Assembly: GCF_900177805.1 (NCBI RefSeq)
Contig: NZ_FXAX01000002.1
Span: forward strand, 248,001-312,000
Origin: Fibrobacter sp. UWB13
GTDB taxonomy: Bacteria; Fibrobacterota; Fibrobacteria; Fibrobacterales; Fibrobacteraceae
Direction: 5' to 3'
DNA: 64,000 bases
Below are positions 36,525 through 44,837 of the stretch, piece by piece. A model generated the notes under the pieces. It did not search any database. It worked only from the letters and a program-made list of their open reading frames with translations, and was not told the origin of the DNA. How positions within the stretch are numbered: the first letter of the stretch is position 1; each line of letters starts with the position of its first letter. The position numbers were made by a program, and so were the translations under genes.

Positions 36525-37526
36525 ATGCTTAATTTAATAAAGGCTGTTAGCCGCTTTTTATCGACATACACATCGCTTTTCGTCATCGCATGTGCAGTCA
36601 TCGCATTTTTCATCCCCACGCTTTTTGGCTGGGTTCACGGCAACACAAGCTCGATTATTCTCGGCATCATCATGCTCAGCATGGGCCTTACCATTACCAT
36701 GGACGATGTCCGCAACTTGATGAAACGTCCTGGTGATATTTTCCTCGGCGCCGTCGCGCAATACACCATCATGCCGCTCGTCGCATTCACGCTCACGAAG
36801 CTCTTTGGACTTGACCCGTATTTGGCCATCGGCATCATTCTCGTCGGTTGCTGCCCGGGTGGCGTTTCAAGCAACGTTATGAGCTTCTTGGCTAAAGGCG
36901 ACGTGACCTATTCCGTAAGCATGACCATGGCAAGCACACTTCTCGCTCCGCTCATGACTCCGCTTTTGGTCCTTTGGCTTGCCGACACGAGCATCGAAGT
37001 GAACGCCGTCGGCATGTTCCTCAACATCCTTTACGTGACCGTCTTCCCGATTGCAATCGGCTTCACTTGCAACTACTTCTTCGGCAAGCGCGCTGGCTTC
37101 AAGGAATTCCAGGCAAACATGCCCGCCGTGAGCGTCATTGGCCTCGCATTAATCGTCGGTGGCGTCATCGTGACCGTTCGCCCGCAGCTTTTCGCGAACG
37201 GCTTTGGCCTTATCGCGCTCATCCTCGCTGTGGTGTTTTTGCATAACGGCCTCGGCTACGTACTCGGCTACAATGTCGGTCGTTTGTTCAAATTCAACAC
37301 CGCCAAGAAGCGCACCATCTCCATTGAAGTCGGTGTGCAGAACGCAGGCATGGCAACAGTCCTTGCCGGCGCATTCTTCGCCAACCCGGAGAATCTCGCC
37401 CTCCACCCGGAAGCAGCCCTCTGCGTTGTGCCGTGCGCCATCAGCTGCGCCTACCATTCCATCAGTGGAACAATCCTCGCCGGCATCTACGCTCACATGG
37501 ACAAGAAGAAAGCAGGGCAAGGGTAA
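36525..37526 (+). CDS. Bile acid:sodium symporter (BASS) family transporter
   Basis: 333 aa with about nine to ten hydrophobic segments. Family blocks: IILGIIMLSMGLTITMDDV, the Na-binding-region motif VGCCPGGVSSNVMSFLAKGD and the crossover helix EVGVQNAGMATVLAGAFF. Inner-membrane Na+-coupled uptake of an organic anion; members handle bile acids, pyruvate or methionine precursors, and the substrate here is unknown. The neighbouring metY could hint at a methionine-related keto acid (weak inference). AAGAAGGATATAACA upstream. Confidence 0.9.
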   Translation: MLNLIKAVSRFLSTYTSLFVIACAVIAFFIPTLFGWVHGNTSSIILGIIMLSMGLTITMDDVRNLMKRPGDIFLGAVAQYTIMPLVAFTLTKLFGLDPYLAIGIILVGCCPGGVSSNVMSFLAKGDVTYSVSMTMASTLLAPLMTPLLVLWLADTSIEVNAVGMFLNILYVTVFPIAIGFTCNYFFGKRAGFKEFQANMPAVSVIGLALIVGGVIVTVRPQLFANGFGLIALILAVVFLHNGLGYVLGYNVGRLFKFNTAKKRTISIEVGVQNAGMATVLAGAFFANPENLALHPEAALCVVPCAISCAYHSISGTILAGIYAHMDKKKAGQG

Positions 37527-37533
37527 AAACAGT

Positions 37534-37656
37534 TTAAAAACTACTACTTAGCCTCTCCAAAATAAATAGTACTTCCGCATACACCAACATCTGCGCGTAG
37601 TACCAAATCATCAACATACCCAAAATAACCACTAAAAGTTTGAGACGTCTTTCCAT
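37534..37656 (-). CDS. Small single-span membrane protein (40 aa)
   Basis: 40 codons, ATG preceded by GAGGATTTAAAA at correct spacing. A basic N-terminus MERRLK is followed by a hydrophobic span (LLVVILGMLMIWYYAQMLVY) and a short amphipathic tail. It ends 8 bp from the BASS gene stop, convergent with it. No family known. It is downstream of the AT-rich island and in the same orientation, but a terminator separates it. Confidence 0.4.
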   Translation of the reverse strand: MERRLKLLVVILGMLMIWYYAQMLVYAEVLFILERLSSSF

Positions 37657-37732
37657 TTTTAAATCCTCGTTTTGCCATAATCTAGATTCAAGGCACGACA
37701 ATTAATGTCGTCTCTAACGACTCCCACGCATA

Positions 37733-37776
37733 AAAAAAGAACTGCTGCATTTTATTGCAACAGTTCGTTTTTTTTC
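37733..37776 (-). terminator. Terminator after Cys-rich small gene
   Basis: GAACTGCTGCA / TGCAACAGTTC hairpin with A-run and T-run on both sides (usable in either direction). It is nearly the same sequence as the hairpin at 38941-38983. Confidence 0.75.
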
Positions 37777-37809
37777 AAATGAAAAGTAGTATTGAAACAG
37801 GAACTCCAA

Positions 37810-38046
37810 TTACAGAGCAGGTTCGTGACCGCCTTTCGACGGGCTCTTTAAGCAACGAGCATTTACCATAGCAAATATCGTCGGGAATTGCAGCCCACAA
37901 TATTTGCAAGTATACTTGGACTTTTCGGAGCCCTCGTACAGCACATGATTTGCACCGCCACCCTGTTTTGCACAACGAGCATGCACCAGCGCAAAAACAG
38001 AAGGAAAACCGATTCCGCAATATTTACAGTAGAACTTGGAGGACAT
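37810..38046 (-). CDS. Small two-repeat Cys-rich (zinc-finger-like) protein
   Basis: 78 aa. Two clear repeats: FYCKYCGIGFPSVFALVHARC (about 5-25) and YTCKYCGLQFPTIFAMVNARC (about 45-65), each C-x2-C-x14-C. The first has an additional His, so each unit could bind a metal with Cys/His ligands or form a ribbon. No known domain name is assigned. Encoded 16 bp after EcsC in the same direction and followed by its own terminator. Its second reading frame is open for similar length, but only this frame shows the repeats. Confidence 0.7.
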   Translation of the reverse strand: MSSKFYCKYCGIGFPSVFALVHARCAKQGGGANHVLYEGSEKSKYTCKYCGLQFPTIFAMVNARCLKSPSKGGHEPAL

Positions 38047-38062
38047 AGATTTCTACACCTAA

Positions 38063-38902
38063 TCAGTCTACCTCCACGCAATTTTCATCCAACCATCTTT
38101 TTTGGAAGGATCTACGTGCAGCCCAGCAAATATCATTAATGTATTGAGCATTCATGGCAGCACCAATACCAGCACCAATAAAAGGAATCATCTGCAAAGC
38201 TTTACGTTTTGTAATATTTATCCCCAACTGCTTAGCTAGCGCCTTTATCGCCAAAACACCCGCTTCTTTGCTAAAAGTTTTTTCAGAAGCCGTCTCTGCC
38301 ATTTTTTTCCATGTTGTTTTCATTATCATTTGCTGAATAGCTCTCATAGTCGTAATAGCAGACATTTTTTCAGCATGAGTATTCGCTCCAGCAGCAGACA
38401 ACACACTAAAAACAAATTTTTCATCTTCGTGACTTATCGTTTCATACCCATAACAGAGACCGATTTTATGAATGGACCTCAAAGAAAAGGTAACCAAGGC
38501 AGGAATATCAACAGCCATCCCCGCCAAACCAAAAAAGCCAGCTGTACCGCCTTCTGCAGTGGCAAACGCAAGAGCCCAATTATGAACACTATTCGCAATT
38601 CCGTCGCAAACTTCCAATTTCGCATTTTTTAAATCCGAAATTTTTGAAACGCCACCATCCCTCAAAATATCACTTTTGTCGGCAAGAGCAGAACCAGCCG
38701 CATTTGCAATATTCAGCGCACCTTCAATAGCCTTTTGTGGCACAAGTTTCTGAGCAAGCCAAACAATAGGTTTAGAGACAAAACCCGAAGCTTGAGTCAA
38801 AACACCCGGTTCTTCATTTTCCCACTTTTGAATACTTGCTGATTCAGCTTTTTCATAAGCAGTTGCTTGTCTTAACGTTTTTTGTTCATCAGTAAAATCC
38901 AT
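38063..38902 (-). CDS. EcsC family protein
   Basis: 279 aa, matching the EcsC family (named after Bacillus EcsC), with unknown biochemistry. Visible features: a basic/acidic N-terminus, a helical region (PIVWLAQKLVPQKAIEGALN), a Gly-rich block (EGGTAGFFGLAGMAVDIPALVTFSLRSIHKI, about 119-149) and a second hydrophobic, Gly-rich block near the end (MIPFIGAGIGAAMNAQYI). These look like membrane-associating amphipathic segments. Terminators flank the gene pair (38941-38983 upstream, 37733-37776 downstream), so EcsC and the Cys-rich gene may be a separate unit from the GTPase operon. Confidence 0.8.
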   Translation of the reverse strand: MDFTDEQKTLRQATAYEKAESASIQKWENEEPGVLTQASGFVSKPIVWLAQKLVPQKAIEGALNIANAAGSALADKSDILRDGGVSKISDLKNAKLEVCDGIANSVHNWALAFATAEGGTAGFFGLAGMAVDIPALVTFSLRSIHKIGLCYGYETISHEDEKFVFSVLSAAGANTHAEKMSAITTMRAIQQMIMKTTWKKMAETASEKTFSKEAGVLAIKALAKQLGINITKRKALQMIPFIGAGIGAAMNAQYINDICWAARRSFQKRWLDENCVEVD

Positions 38903-38940
38903 TGCATTACCTCTTTTCTGCTTTCCTTTCTAAATATAAG

Positions 38941-38983
38941 TAAAAAAGAACTGCCGCTTTTTTTGCAATAGTTCATTTTTTTC
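38941..38983 (-). terminator. Terminator after 233-aa gene
   Basis: A-run, GAACTGC ... GCAATAGTTC hairpin, T-run. Close in sequence to the hairpin at 37733-37776, bracketing the EcsC/Cys-rich gene pair. Confidence 0.7.
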
Positions 38984-38993
38984 AACTCAGTTA

Positions 38994-39695
38994 TTATTTC
39001 AACCAGTTCTCTTTAAGCCAACTACAGAAGAAATCTCGTGAAGTCATGCCACAAGCTTTTGTGTAGCCCGTCATCGGTTGATTCCAATGGACGCTTGACG
39101 GATGCTTCGTATAGACATATTCAATGCCGCGCGGTCCCGTCCAATCCCAAAGTTCACCGTCAAAATACTTCGGGTAATCAAAGCCCTCCGCCTGCTTGCA
39201 AACTCGAGAACTCAAGAAAACAAACATGTCCGGTTTCAGGATTTCAAGAACCTTGATGAAATTGCGAATAGCTTGTTCGCAGTCAACATTCTTGCCGCCA
39301 TACGCATTCCACAAATCCTCGATTCCAGTCGTGCAATCCGCCGGGCGCAAGAAGTAATTGAGGAAAGCCACCTGATGCCAGCCATTGCCTCCACTCGGCA
39401 GCACCAGATTCAAGCACCGATCAATCTCTTTCCCGAAACGACCGCTCTTGCCCTCACGAGTTCCACGAGTATTACACCAGTCTTGCTCATCACTCGTAAG
39501 CACAGGAGTTCCATACCACGAATTCGCATTGTGATGCACCGTAGCTCCTTCGGGCAAGTAAAAGCTCTCGCCCACAAGCAAAAGCTTTTTATGCATCGAA
39601 GATTCGTAAGCATCCCCCACAAAGGGCATCATGTACGGATGCGATCTATAAAAGGGGATGGATAGAAAGCGAGAATCGTAATCAGAATGCAACAA
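38994..39695 (-). CDS. Protein of unknown function, 233 aa
   Basis: Not recognised. Soluble, no signal peptide. Notable blocks: LLLVGESFYLPEGATVHHN (about 34-52), WCNTRGTREGKSGRFGKEIDR, VAFLNYFLRPA (about 109-119), FIKVLEILKPDMFVFLSSRVCKQ and a His/Trp-rich end (TKHPSSVHWNQP). The VGES...LNYFLRP...LKPDMFVFLS...HPSS order is loosely reminiscent of the uracil-DNA-glycosylase-like fold, where a final HPS motif is typical; I treat this as a weak hint. Member of the AT-rich operon, 23 bp downstream of the 374-aa gene. Confidence 0.65.
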   Translation of the reverse strand: MLHSDYDSRFLSIPFYRSHPYMMPFVGDAYESSMHKKLLLVGESFYLPEGATVHHNANSWYGTPVLTSDEQDWCNTRGTREGKSGRFGKEIDRCLNLVLPSGGNGWHQVAFLNYFLRPADCTTGIEDLWNAYGGKNVDCEQAIRNFIKVLEILKPDMFVFLSSRVCKQAEGFDYPKYFDGELWDWTGPRGIEYVYTKHPSSVHWNQPMTGYTKACGMTSRDFFCSWLKENWLK

Positions 39696-39718
39696 ACGCC
39701 TCCCTTTATTACAAACAG

Positions 39719-40843
39719 TTATTTTTTTTTTGATGATTCGCTTTCGCCATCTCTTTTTGATTCTACTTTCACATATTCATCAATTTTTTTCACATCATCA
39801 ACAGGCATTTTCGTCAAATCAGAAACTTCTTTTATGTCAAGTCCCCTTTTTACCAATTTTTCGGCAATTTCAACATTGTCTAACTTACCATCATCAAAAA
39901 GATTGTTTATGGACTTGTATTGTTCTACGATGTTGTTCAGTTCACTAATTCCATGATTATAATCATCATAACCCATCGCAAACAAAACAGAATCACGACT
40001 ATATTCCTGGAATTGTCTTTTCACATCTAAATTAATGTTCAAATTAAAGCCCAAGCATGCTTTTAAGAAAACAGCCCCCACACTGCCGGCTTTAGCAATT
40101 CCCAAGGAAGCCCCGATACTAAAATACTTACTCATATCAGACGAATACTGATACTGTTTAAAGTCAAATTTCTTTAAACCATATTTCGGATTTCGAGATA
40201 CAAGTAAATTCCTAAAATCTTCAATATAGAGCAACCCATTTTCTTTTAGGTAATTTTCTGCTTCATTCCAACGTTCCTGAGTCATTTCAATGGGATCATA
40301 ATATTCAAAATGAATAAATTTTCTATCCAAACGTTTTTCTATAGTTTGTTGAATTCTAGCATCAATTTTTCTTTCGTCAGCATAAGAACCTTCAAGAGAT
40401 TGTCCTTGAACAGCTAGACCACCCCCAATTTTACGTCCATCACCCAAGCCTAAACGAGCCGCCAACCCAGAACTTGTTTGCTGAGTGCTCATTTCGATAT
40501 TCGCAATCATCGTAACACCCAAAAGTTGTGCAAGATGTGTATACGCGTTCAAACGCTCATTGTTTATGCGGTTTATAGAATCAAAGGAAGACTCGTAATA
40601 AACATTCGGCTTCCCAAAGTACTTTGCACGGAGATAAGTATTACCAATTACAGGATCAATTTGCTCGCCATAACTATCTAAGAAAATCAAATCTTTCACA
40701 TCGTTAAGTGAAAGCATATCAACCTTTGACAAGTCCCCCCTCACATCAGGAGCTAAATTATTGGAATCAACCCAATGTCCACTGTTAAATGCAGCAGCCT
40801 CGGTCATATCCACAATTGCCAACATATCTTTTCTAAGAGTCAT
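39719..40843 (-). CDS. Protein of unknown function, 374 aa
   Basis: Not recognised. No signal peptide. Residues about 1-110 are mixed, with NDVKDLIFLDSYGEQIDPVIG and QLLGVTMIANIEMS. Around 125-180 there is a Gly-rich stretch (AARLGLGDGRKIGGGLAVQG) and a helical charged region (DARIQQTIEKRLDRKFIHFE). Around 243-275 comes another Gly/Ala/Val segment (YFSIGASLGIAKAGSVGAVF) that might associate with a membrane. The Lys/Ser/Glu-rich tail is disordered. The first 12 codons after the ATG are hydrophobic/acidic. Between a membrane-anchored protein (16 bp away) and the 233-aa gene, so cotranscription is likely. Confidence 0.65.
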   Translation of the reverse strand: MTLRKDMLAIVDMTEAAAFNSGHWVDSNNLAPDVRGDLSKVDMLSLNDVKDLIFLDSYGEQIDPVIGNTYLRAKYFGKPNVYYESSFDSINRINNERLNAYTHLAQLLGVTMIANIEMSTQQTSSGLAARLGLGDGRKIGGGLAVQGQSLEGSYADERKIDARIQQTIEKRLDRKFIHFEYYDPIEMTQERWNEAENYLKENGLLYIEDFRNLLVSRNPKYGLKKFDFKQYQYSSDMSKYFSIGASLGIAKAGSVGAVFLKACLGFNLNINLDVKRQFQEYSRDSVLFAMGYDDYNHGISELNNIVEQYKSINNLFDDGKLDNVEIAEKLVKRGLDIKEVSDLTKMPVDDVKKIDEYVKVESKRDGESESSKKK

Positions 40844-40859
40844 AGAATACCCCTTATTC

Positions 40860-41324
40860 TTAATTTAAAACAAAACCAAAAACGATAAAAAAAAACAGTA
40901 ATGAGACTAAAGTCACCAAACCTTTTGCAGTAACCCCCTTTAGCCTTCTTTTCGTTAGGAAAGGAATAAATTTCTGATTAAAATAAAGACTTAGCACCGT
41001 ATCACATTCTTTTTTTGATATTGTAAATCCTTTTTCATTCACGAGCTTTTTTAGTACTTCCATAACTTTAAAGATATTATCAATATCTATATAAAATGCA
41101 AACGGGATTCTTCTCTTAGCTGAATCCAACTCAACAACATGACCATTAACAACGACTTCGTGTTTTAATTTGTTGTAATAAATTTTAAAGGGAGACGCTT
41201 CTACTTCATGAAAATCCTTATTATCAACTACATAAATATAATCAACATATTCTTTTGAGCATGGTTTTCCATTTAACCAAAGTGAATCACCAAATTCAGT
41301 TTGCACCCATAAAACATTTTTCAT
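40860..41324 (-). CDS. C-terminally membrane-anchored unknown protein, 154 aa
   Basis: Not recognised. The soluble N-terminal part (about 1-120) has short beta-type segments (VLWVQTEFGDSLWLNG, FKIYYNKLKHEVVVNGHVVEL) and a helical stretch (DIDNIFKVMEVLKKLVNEKG). A basic patch (TKRRLKG) comes before a single hydrophobic span (LVTLVSLLFFFIVFGFVL) that ends the protein, so it should be tail-anchored. Ten bases separate it from the upstream DUF3944-GTPase gene. Very AT-rich codon use. Confidence 0.65.
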   Translation of the reverse strand: MKNVLWVQTEFGDSLWLNGKPCSKEYVDYIYVVDNKDFHEVEASPFKIYYNKLKHEVVVNGHVVELDSAKRRIPFAFYIDIDNIFKVMEVLKKLVNEKGFTISKKECDTVLSLYFNQKFIPFLTKRRLKGVTAKGLVTLVSLLFFFIVFGFVLN

Positions 41325-41333
41325 ACAGACTCC

Positions 41334-42479
41334 TTATAACAATTTTTCTTTTATAATATCAAACATTTCCTTCGTACTGACTTCATCTTTCAAATTAACG
41401 CACAAGAAGTCATCAATATTCAATTTACTCGAGACATCCCCCATTTCAGCAGTATGAATCATCTTATACAAATCGAATCTCACTTGTTTTTCAACATACA
41501 AATCACCATGCGTTGCGATAAATACAATTTTTTTTGCTTCATTTAAATCTTTCAGCATTCCTAAACGAGAAAGAAAATCATTTTTTTTCTCATTTACTTC
41601 AAGCACCTCTTTGGGGTTAAAGCAAAATAGAATTAAATCTTTATTTTGACACAATGCTTTTTGCTTATCCACATATATTTTATCTCCAGGAACCGTTTCA
41701 CCTTCGTTAATGGGCATATTCAATATTGGAGAAACAAAAGATGTTTCTCTTTCCAAAGACATTGAACCTTCATCTAATTGAATAAATTTACCCGTTTTAA
41801 GATATTTTAGCAATGTGGATTTTCCTGCTTTACTAGCTCCAAGAATCGCTATCGACAAACCCTGTGTAGAATTTCTCAATAAAGAAATTTCCACAATAGC
41901 TTGCATAATCACAGACCAATTAGGATTAAACAATTTAAATTCAGGATAAAATTTATCTATGATATAATTTCCAATTTTGTAAACCCAATGTTTTTGTTCT
42001 GCGGCGGCCTCTTGTAGCAACCGTTCCATTGCTGAACTTGTATCAAAATATTCTCTTAACACATATTGAAATTCTTCTATAGATAGTTCTTCTTGAACTT
42101 GAATAATTTTTTCAACGTATTTCTTTAATTTTTCTATTATTTTTGTTTCTTTTTCTACAGCATTTTTTCCCTTTAAAGATTCAGTCAACTCCATTTTATT
42201 CGCAACATCATCAAGAATTTCTTGATACATTACACCATTACGTCGTACAGTATTTACAAAAGAATTTCCTCCAAAACATTGTATTTCCCTTGCAAATATT
42301 TGCCAATTCTTTATATCTCTATTATTTTCGTTAAGACTAAGCAATTCAAATGATTCATCAAAAGCAGTTGATCTATTTTTTCCAATACGATCATACAACA
42401 ATATGTGACCTAAATAATTAAGCTTTTTTGAATCAATATTTTTTAGAAATTCCAAATCCTTATCAACAATATAATCCAT
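41334..42479 (-). CDS. DUF3944 domain fused to a P-loop GTPase-like domain
   Basis: 381 aa. Residues about 5-95 (DYIVDKDLEFLKNI, RIGKNRSTAFDESFELL, WQIFAREIQCFGGNSFVN, RNGVMYQEILDDVANKM) match DUF3944, the N-terminus of the YaaW-type family. A coiled/helical middle (about 95-200) leads to a P-loop NTPase: G1 motif ILGASKAGKSTLLKYL (about 213-228) and a TKxD-like ATHGDLY block near 328, with a hydrophobic strand ending in DLILFCFN. The usual DxxG switch motif is not obvious. Upstream-most gene of the AT-rich operon; the same orientation and short spacings suggest a module with the tail-anchored and unknown proteins. Base composition is far more AT-rich than the flanks, a sign of transfer. Confidence 0.75.
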   Translation of the reverse strand: MDYIVDKDLEFLKNIDSKKLNYLGHILLYDRIGKNRSTAFDESFELLSLNENNRDIKNWQIFAREIQCFGGNSFVNTVRRNGVMYQEILDDVANKMELTESLKGKNAVEKETKIIEKLKKYVEKIIQVQEELSIEEFQYVLREYFDTSSAMERLLQEAAAEQKHWVYKIGNYIIDKFYPEFKLFNPNWSVIMQAIVEISLLRNSTQGLSIAILGASKAGKSTLLKYLKTGKFIQLDEGSMSLERETSFVSPILNMPINEGETVPGDKIYVDKQKALCQNKDLILFCFNPKEVLEVNEKKNDFLSRLGMLKDLNEAKKIVFIATHGDLYVEKQVRFDLYKMIHTAEMGDVSSKLNIDDFLCVNLKDEVSTKEMFDIIKEKLL

Positions 42480-43011
42480 TTTATTATCCTTTTATTGTTT
42501 TTAGTTTCATGACATTATTTCGGGTTTTCCACCTTTGCGGCATCACCATTTACCACAATCCAAGCGTCATCCAAATATCCACATTTTTTTTGCTGTTACA
42601 TTTCATAGTTCAACCTCGGTTTCGCTTCAATATAAAACGAACAGGCGACAAATGATGTCGTCAGTTGTACTCTTTTAAGCAAGGACTTCGACCCAAAGTT
42701 AGGAAACAAGAATTTAAATGGGAATGAATAAAGGAAATTTGATTCTAGGCTTACCCCCAAAGTCCCAGAATTCATCGAATCCAAAGCCTCCATATTTCCA
42801 TTACCAATAATCATCATCGATAAATATACATTCGTCCAAAGATTAACTAGTCAAAATGTAAAAAAAATTGTCATTTTCTTCCATTTCCGCCAATCTGCTG
42901 AAAATACCATCCAAAACACCCCTTTTTGAACCACTTTTGGACGTTATTTTTCAAAAATCTTATCCAAAAGTCGAAATTTTGTACCGCATTTAGATAGTAT
43001 TCTGTGCATTT
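42480..43011. other. AT-rich noncoding gap upstream of the island operon
   Basis: No supportable gene in about 530 bases. The short ORFs found here lack RBS and family resemblance. It should hold the promoter of the DUF3944-GTPase operon; no confident box was identified. Several T-rich tracts and Cys-coding fragments look like degraded sequence. Confidence 0.5.
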
Positions 43012-43123: not shown

Positions 43124-44788
43124 CTAAGAAATAAGCAGTATCGCAAGCACTTGCCCACTCAAGATTCTCAGTAACATCGTGAGTGGGTAAACAGATGCAT
43201 AACCAACGTTCGTTGCTTCGGAATTGCTGAGGCCGTTTGCGAATGCAAGTGCCGGAGGGTCTGTCGTCGCACCTGCAAGCACACCGCAAAGCGAGAGGTA
43301 ATTGACCTTGAACACCGCCTTGCCAACAATCGCCACAATCATCAGCGGGAAGAACGTAATAATTGCCGAGAGCGCCATGTAGTAGAAACCGTCGCCATTC
43401 AAGAGCACATCGAAGAACTTGATACCGGCATTGAGACCCACGCAGCTGAGGAATATCGTAATACCGAGTTCACGCAGCATGAGGTTTGCGCTGTTTGCCA
43501 TGAAGAAGTTGAGCGGGCCAATCTTACGTTTACGGCTAAGGATAATTGCGACAATCAGCGGACCGCCAGCAAGGCCGAGCTTGAGCGGGGTCGGCATTCC
43601 AGGAATCGCCACCGGAATGCTACCGACAATCACGCCAAGGAAAATGCCGAGGAATGCGGGGAGAATTTCCGGATGGTCAAGCGCCGTGAGCGAGTCGCCC
43701 AGTTCCTTTGCGGCAGCGGCAATGCTTTCCGGCGTACCGACCACGAGCAACTTATCTGCAAACTTCACGCGGATATCGAGGCGACCGGTGAACTTGAATC
43801 CGCCACGAGTCACGCGGCTCACGGTCACGCCAAAGCGGTCGTTGAGCGCAAGCTGCTGAATGCTCTTGCCAAGAATTTTCTTGTTCGTCACGAGAATCGT
43901 CTTGACCGCCAAATTCGACTTCTGGAGCGTAATCGGGTTTTCTTGCTTTTCGCCAATAATCTTCTGCAAACTTTCAATCGCGTCCGGCATACCGACGACA
44001 TGCACCAAGTCATGGAGCTCAAGCGTCATATCGCCCTTCGGCATGTTAATCACCTGGTCGCGAGCATGGCGCGTCACCACAGCACCCGAAGAGATGAGCC
44101 CCGGAATGTCCTTGATCTTGCAGCCCACAAGATTTGCATTGTCCACACGGAGTGTGCAAGAGACAATTTCCTTGGACTGTTCTGCAATTTCTTTCTGGTA
44201 TTCTGCGGCAGCAACTTCCGGCTTTTGCCTAAAGAAAACGCGCACAAGAATCATCACGAGGATAATGCCAATCACGCCGAACGGGTAAGCCACCGCATAG
44301 CCAACGCCCGTGAGTGAAGCGTCCACGCTAGCCGCCGTCAGAGCAGAATTCGCAGCACCGAGCGACGGAGTGTTCGTCACGGCTCCGCAAAGCATGCCAA
44401 TCAGCACCGGCACGTTATCGTGCATGTTCGTCGTGAAGTAAATAAGAACGGTAGCAAGTACACCCAGGAGGACGATACTCACCGCAAGAATGTTGAGCAC
44501 CAGACCGTGTCGCTTTATGGAGTCAATAAAGCCCGGGCCTACTTGCATACCGATTGTATAGACAAAGAGAATGAGGCCAAATTCCTGCATAAAATGAAGA
44601 ACGCTGGGCTCGATTCGCATTCCGATATGACCGAGAAGGATTCCTACGAAAAGAGCGCCAGCTCCCCCAAGGCTCACGCCTTTCACCTTGACCTTGCCCA
44701 GCATGATGCCGATGGCAGCCGTCAAGGATAGCGCGAGTACTTGTTGCCCTACAGAGGGCTTTGCAAACAGGTCAATTAGCCAGTCCAT
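43124..44788 (-). CDS. AspT/YidE-type putative transporter with two RCK_C domains
   Basis: 554 aa from ATG at 44788 (AAGAAGG eight bases upstream; a GTG at 44797 is less likely). Two membrane bundles (about 5-185 and 380-554) of the aspartate:alanine exchanger (AAE) duplication type surround two regulator-of-K+-conductance C-terminal (TrkA-C) domains at about 200-285 and 290-370. The bundles contain GALFVGILLG, GLILFVYTIGMQVGPGFIDSI, GMLCGAVTNTPSLGAAN, and the second-half equivalents GITIFLSCVGLNAG and GVLAGATTDPPALAFAN. The inner-membrane substrate is unknown; related proteins exchange amino acids. Confidence 0.9.
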   Translation of the reverse strand: MDWLIDLFAKPSVGQQVLALSLTAAIGIMLGKVKVKGVSLGGAGALFVGILLGHIGMRIEPSVLHFMQEFGLILFVYTIGMQVGPGFIDSIKRHGLVLNILAVSIVLLGVLATVLIYFTTNMHDNVPVLIGMLCGAVTNTPSLGAANSALTAASVDASLTGVGYAVAYPFGVIGIILVMILVRVFFRQKPEVAAAEYQKEIAEQSKEIVSCTLRVDNANLVGCKIKDIPGLISSGAVVTRHARDQVINMPKGDMTLELHDLVHVVGMPDAIESLQKIIGEKQENPITLQKSNLAVKTILVTNKKILGKSIQQLALNDRFGVTVSRVTRGGFKFTGRLDIRVKFADKLLVVGTPESIAAAAKELGDSLTALDHPEILPAFLGIFLGVIVGSIPVAIPGMPTPLKLGLAGGPLIVAIILSRKRKIGPLNFFMANSANLMLRELGITIFLSCVGLNAGIKFFDVLLNGDGFYYMALSAIITFFPLMIVAIVGKAVFKVNYLSLCGVLAGATTDPPALAFANGLSNSEATNVGYASVYPLTMLLRILSGQVLAILLIS

Positions 44789-44837
44789 TTTATACACCTT
44801 CTTTTTTTCGCACCCAAATGTAGCATAGGAGATTAAT

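Follow-up and report, generated by a model that had tools for sequence, protein, structure and literature searches.

Genes A, B and C of the window, the 64-kb stretch of DNA analysed here, form the core of an inserted island, and we give a probability of about 0.5 to the reading that they are an anti-phage cassette spread by horizontal transfer, a Juk-type defence with a linked GTPase that would probably act at a membrane. The three genes lie in inserted DNA, their order recurs at other loci, and protein A combines JukA homology with GTPase motifs; the defence role, the membrane target and the division of labour among the proteins are what we infer.

Composition of the island

Six minus-strand genes, A to F, occupy positions 42479-37812 in the list of open reading frames and translations of the window (Table 1), with intergenic gaps from A to F of 9, 16, 23, 91 and 19 bp. 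The first-pass annotation had described a compact cluster on this strand, and the genes lie where it placed them. It had also given all six a lower GC content than their flanks, which holds for only part of the cluster. The GC contents of A to F are 0.29, 0.29, 0.36, 0.48, 0.41 and 0.48, whereas the flanking genes have 0.53-0.54; AT richness is seen in A, B, C and E, and D and F are near normal. Because the terminator-like hairpin after D is weak and the one after F is strong, E and F may form a separate transcript. No integrase or transposase was seen within the island. Upstream of A, positions 42480-42700 apparently contain the frameshifted remains of a short zinc-ribbon-like sequence.

Table 1. 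Features of the island and its flanks (positions in the window)
Feature	Position	Strand	Description
Island (inserted segment)	37514..43006	.	5.5 kb; flanks adjoin in several relatives
Left-flank gene	ends 37526		bile-acid/Na+ symporter-like
Small ORF at left island edge	37534..37656	-	40 aa, single transmembrane segment; relatives 62-65% identical
Hairpin after F	37766-37739	-	strong, terminator-like; -16.7 kcal/mol, z -5.4
F	37812..38043	-	77 aa; two CKYCG zinc fingers, C2H2-like; zf-C2H2 below cut-off, 2 stretches
E	38063..38902	-	EcsC family (PF12787), Pfam 3.4e-46; accessory
Hairpin after D	38974-38942	-	weak, terminator-like, with T run; -7.7 kcal/mol, z -2.1
D	38994..39695	-	233 aa, TTG start; motifs GESFY, NYFLRP, HPSS; accessory
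C	39719..40843	-	374 aa; motif F..LL..RNP; candidate effector or adaptor
B	40860..41324	-	154 aa; hydrophobic segment 135-153, hydropathy 2.74
A	41334..42479	-	381 aa; JukA-family domain (~1-204) and predicted small-GTPase domain (~205-381)
Right-flank gene	43124-44797		AspT-like transporter

A variable insertion site

The AspT-like transporter gene of the right flank was found in 78 of the 80 genomes of the genus. In G046, G001 and G043 the left flank (the window up to ~37513) and the right flank (from ~43007) lie 18-33 bp apart, and in G005 and G057 the same two flanks are ~110-200 bp apart, indicating that 37514-43006 was gained as a block or lost from the others. The gained DNA extends beyond the six-gene cluster. 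In G008 the site carries a different cargo of 4.9 kb, including a gene of the YhgA-like nuclease family and a relative of D. Gene content at the locus, which was checked against a fixed content, therefore varies among relatives, and the site is a variable one at which cargo is swapped between genomes.

In another genus (G141), genes for canonical JukA, LeoBC-like (2e-97) and LeoA-like (8e-143) dynamins and then F and D lie beside a truncated AspT gene, F and D having >90% DNA identity to the window copies; this JukA-Leo locus is apparently at the same site as the window island. At L106 7221-11508 the canonical JukA gene shares an operon with the genes of the two dynamins, which suggests a combined JukA-Leo system. 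Relatives of the 40-aa transmembrane ORF lie at insert ends in G141 and G008. The ORF recurs at insert edges in several genomes (L106 12645-12755; L059 4287-4397; L108 4455-4562) and might encode a small membrane toxin or simply mark the site.

Fic, PLDc and WYL genes mark a second variable site (L012 10601-12852; L063; L010), where the defence-like cargo differs per genome; in the genome of the window this is where the second copy of the core, described below, is situated. In G054 this site holds an EcsC gene, an 82% orthologue of E, beside two DUF262-type genes, of which the one tested matches GmrSD_N, and a PLDc site in G019 carries JukA and DUF1232.

Protein A combines a JukA-family domain with a predicted small GTPase

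The fusion of DUF3944 with a P-loop domain, the hydrophobic C terminus of B, the 374-aa C and the EcsC protein (Pfam 3e-46), all named in the first-pass annotation, were confirmed. Besides the Pfam match to DUF3944, residues 3-142 of A match the PADLOC JukA models (E 1e-24), and residues 1-202 show 28% identity (BLAST, E ~1e-22) to JukA-like proteins that stand alone in G019 and G070. In an alignment with canonical JukA, the Gly-rich hydrophobic hairpin of the latter is missing from A, from A of the congener G004 and from the G019 and G070 proteins; the last helix, ahead of residue 203, is retained.

The GTPase domain follows the JukA part directly, with the motifs GASKAGKST (G1) and THGD (G4); the other two copies have GMQQSGKST/SHID and GSEESGKST/THID. 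A also matches the small_GTP profile (4e-4). The G3 position reads TVPG in A, DIAG in A of G004 and DIPG in a second copy in the same genome as the window. Since the usual Asp is missing from A and present in the two relatives, GTP hydrolysis by A may be weak or regulated. An AlphaFold model of A, built from 6 sequences, reached pLDDT 61; residues 204-381 of this model resemble Gtr2/RagC (Z 11.4, rmsd 3.0, 147 aligned), and the model also matches many other Ras-like GTPases, LRRK1 Roc and IIGP1 (Z 9.7) among them. Taken together, the motifs, the profiles and this medium-confidence model point to a JukA-family sensor domain fused to a predicted Ras-like GTPase domain. Sequence searches of the PDB with A, C and D found no relatives.

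Proteins B and C

The C-terminal hydrophobic segment of B is at the same position in its two relatives, from G004 and the second own copy, and thus in three copies in all, which fits a tail-anchored protein with one C-terminal transmembrane helix. Homologues of C were found at four loci, where they adjoin B or directly follow the GTPase gene. The AlphaFold prediction of C had a pLDDT of 42, and C had no match in Pfam, PADLOC or the PDB. Searches of Pfam, PADLOC and NCBIfam gave nothing above cut-off for B, C or D, and hhalign comparisons of JukB with B and C were negative.

Occurrence of the A-B-C core

The core spans 42479-39719. The congener G004 has A-B-C-D in the same order at L009 9325-12627, with BLAST identities to the window of 23% (A), 24% (B), 21% (C) and 22% (D). 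The second copy in the own genome (L012) consists of a GTPase gene lacking the JukA domain, then B and then C; next after C comes a PD-(D/E)XK gene matching the PADLOC candidate PDC-S26 (5.6e-48). Two further loci, one in a congener and one in the own genome, thus repeat the A-B-C order at 21-27% identity, which is not expected by chance. A profile of A led to a fourth module in G126 (genus g4; L140), which reads GTPase, C, a gene with no assignment, a possible UDG-like gene and EcsC. Its C scored 14.9 bits, whereas 1000 shuffles reached 8.0 at most; its fourth gene weakly resembles the UDG-like gene that accompanies the second own copy, and the EcsC gene that ends the module matches at 4.4e-8. 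Co-occurrence away from the window locus, which was also checked, was therefore found for A-B-C in G004 and at the second own site, and for the GTPase and C in G126.

The GTPases of the second own copy and of G126, which lack the JukA part, have an N-terminal hydrophobic helix. The JukA domain is missing from the GTPase in 2 of the 4 modules, so it is dispensable for the core. With a threshold of E < 0.001, C was detected in 3 of the 168 genomes of the phylum, and the core is thus rare there; B and C are each present in 2 of the 80 congeners. A match to C in G106 (E 0.036) was dismissed as chance, being an ankyrin-like ORF, and a match to the A profile in G125 was an unrelated, larger GTPase.

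All four modules found lie within one phylum. A-B-C was not found in other genomes, plasmids, phages or viral contigs by scans that are insensitive at 21-27% identity, and we make no claim of its restriction to the phylum. In tblastn searches of phages and plasmids, only matches of the JukA-type N-terminal part were obtained. JukA-family genes were seen elsewhere, such as one (PADLOC 1e-65) that lies among phage-like genes on E. coli plasmids of the pO111 type (L067 6001-6753). JukA-family N-termini are joined to unassigned C-terminal parts of ~400 aa on Methylomonas and Sphingomonas plasmids (L125 3956-5755; L126 4010-5779), and no GTPase domains were found in these fusions of 590-600 aa.

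Accessory genes D, E and F

D may be uracil-DNA-glycosylase-like by resemblance of its motifs, and the PF03167 profile did not match it. Its family is present in 37 of 168 genomes of the phylum and that of F in 25 of 168. F and D form a mobile two-gene pair: in seven genomes (L106-L111, L115) F is 14-33 bp upstream of D, and the paired copies have protein identities to the window of 73-94% for D and 93-99% for F. The order in the window is different, D following C and F following the EcsC gene, yet the two are paired elsewhere, suggesting that the island is a mosaic of cassettes. E matches the PADLOC candidates PDC-S29 (3e-11) and PDC-S30 (7e-8). On Myroides and Chryseobacterium plasmids, relatives of F precede DUF262 genes.

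These data bear on the proposal that all six genes are one system, in which a GTPase-linked sensor, a membrane anchor and C would work with EcsC, a UDG-like enzyme that damages DNA and a regulator with zinc fingers; we consider it rather unlikely. The genes are a compact cluster on one strand, a relative of D follows C in G004 (E 9e-5), a UDG-like gene is downstream in the second own copy (PF03167 E 0.04), the G126 module has a possible UDG-like gene and EcsC after the GTPase and C, and a zinc-finger-like ORF lies immediately upstream of A in G004. However, D and F show 82-99% identity to the independent zinc-finger-D pair of genomes that almost all lack A-C, the GC content differs among the genes, a weak terminator-like hairpin follows D, and the D family is common enough to make chance neighbours likely. 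The view of the six genes as one uniform AT-rich unit, put forward in the first-pass annotation, is not supported, given the near-normal GC of D and F and their pairing elsewhere. The position of D after C in G004, the EcsC gene ending the G126 module and the neighbouring EcsC and zinc-finger genes of the window, G023 and G054 are suggestive links. We read D, EcsC and the zinc-finger protein as accessory cassettes found repeatedly at these sites, and not as fixed parts.

Proposed mechanism and alternatives

We favour defence for A-B-C because of the JukA homology, the GTPase motifs, the repeated core order, the swapped cargo and the defence-gene neighbourhoods. The reading is weakened because only four modules were found, all in one phylum, A lacks the hairpin and the G3 Asp, no JukB homologue was found among B to F, and 2 of the 4 modules lack JukA. 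Our results bear out the earlier picture of an acquired, variable module that joins a nucleotide switch to membrane proteins in a defence-like setting. The role that had been proposed, stress or anti-phage, stands in part: a stress role is possible, and the JukA domain of A, which is the link to a described defence system, had been missed.

On the defence reading, A-B-C would probably act at a membrane. By analogy with JukA, the N-terminal domain of A might detect an early phage structure or protein, and detection would switch the fused predicted Ras-like GTPase domain. The GTP state could then drive assembly with C, which is probably the effector or an adaptor, and with the tail-anchored B at a membrane, and the outcome would be damage to the phage compartment or to the cell membrane. 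In modules without the JukA part, sensing would have to come from elsewhere. In a more specific version, the JukA part would locate the early infection vesicle, the predicted Ras-like domain would switch, and B together with C would break the vesicle open, which would make the module a functional counterpart of the interferon-inducible GTPases; we regard this version as quite improbable.

Alternatively, A-B-C could be a GTPase module for membrane stress or envelope remodelling that merely travels in variable sites and has no part in defence. A GTPase with a tail-anchored protein, and a core that has neither a nuclease nor a known toxin domain, would suit such a role, and the JukA/YaaW family also includes a chromosomal gene of Salmonella and E. 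coli whose role is unclear. We consider this unlikely in view of the patchy presence of B and C among congeners, the strong divergence of the copies and the defence-gene neighbourhoods at three sites. It is also distinctly improbable that A and its partners remodel or sever membranes by GTP-driven assembly in the manner of Leo or dynamins, with JukA only targeting them. In G141 an operon joins canonical JukA to LeoBC and LeoA, and JukA adjoins a LeoBC-like dynamin on an Acinetobacter plasmid, but the GTPase domain of A is small, is predicted to be Ras-like and has no dynamin helical domain or paddle. Similarity of A to LeoBC (E 0.037) is confined to the P-loop region, as is that to LeoA by hhalign, and DLP_helical and Dynamin_N were not matched.

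If the defence reading of A-B-C is true, a JukA sensor and a small-GTPase switch with their own membrane protein and partner would represent a regulated branch of the Juk family under nucleotide control. Together with the JukA-Leo operons at the same kind of site, A-B-C suggests that GTPases are recurrent partners of JukA. Neither B nor C belongs to a functionally annotated family, and small constructs would suffice to test them.

Comparison with known systems

E resembles the PADLOC EcsC candidates PDC-S29 and PDC-S30, which are candidate families only, and it is separable from A-B-C. With the IRG GTPases, which act on pathogen vacuoles, the proposed module would share, by analogy only, a GTPase switch aimed at a pathogen compartment; the homology evidence goes no further than the GTPase fold, IIGP1 being one of many GTPases that the model matches. 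The Leo system (LeoA/LeoBC) is likewise GTPase-based and membrane-linked, and it occurs with JukA at the same kind of site in G141. In contrast to Leo, A has a single small GTPase domain without the dynamin helical domain, and B and C are not Leo proteins.

Juk (jumbo phage killer) belongs to a small group of systems known to act against nucleus-forming jumbo phages during the vesicle stage. A review (PMC13282480) describes its sensor, JukA, as recognising phage proteins made early, at the infection vesicle, and as cooperating with a range of effectors that includes JukB. Unlike Juk, the JukA part in the window is fused to a predicted Ras-like GTPase domain, and B and C fall in no described family of the libraries searched. 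Proteins B to F had no match to the pore-forming effector JukB at E 1 in the PADLOC library, which includes a JukB model (F was represented only by the overlapping ORF 37775-38020). Since both JukB and the JukA hairpin are missing, we do not file A-B-C as a Juk system. However, A belongs to the JukA family over residues 3-142, and the module shares with Juk the layout of a sensor with variable partners and the mobile context; we provisionally place it as a Juk relative with a linked GTPase.
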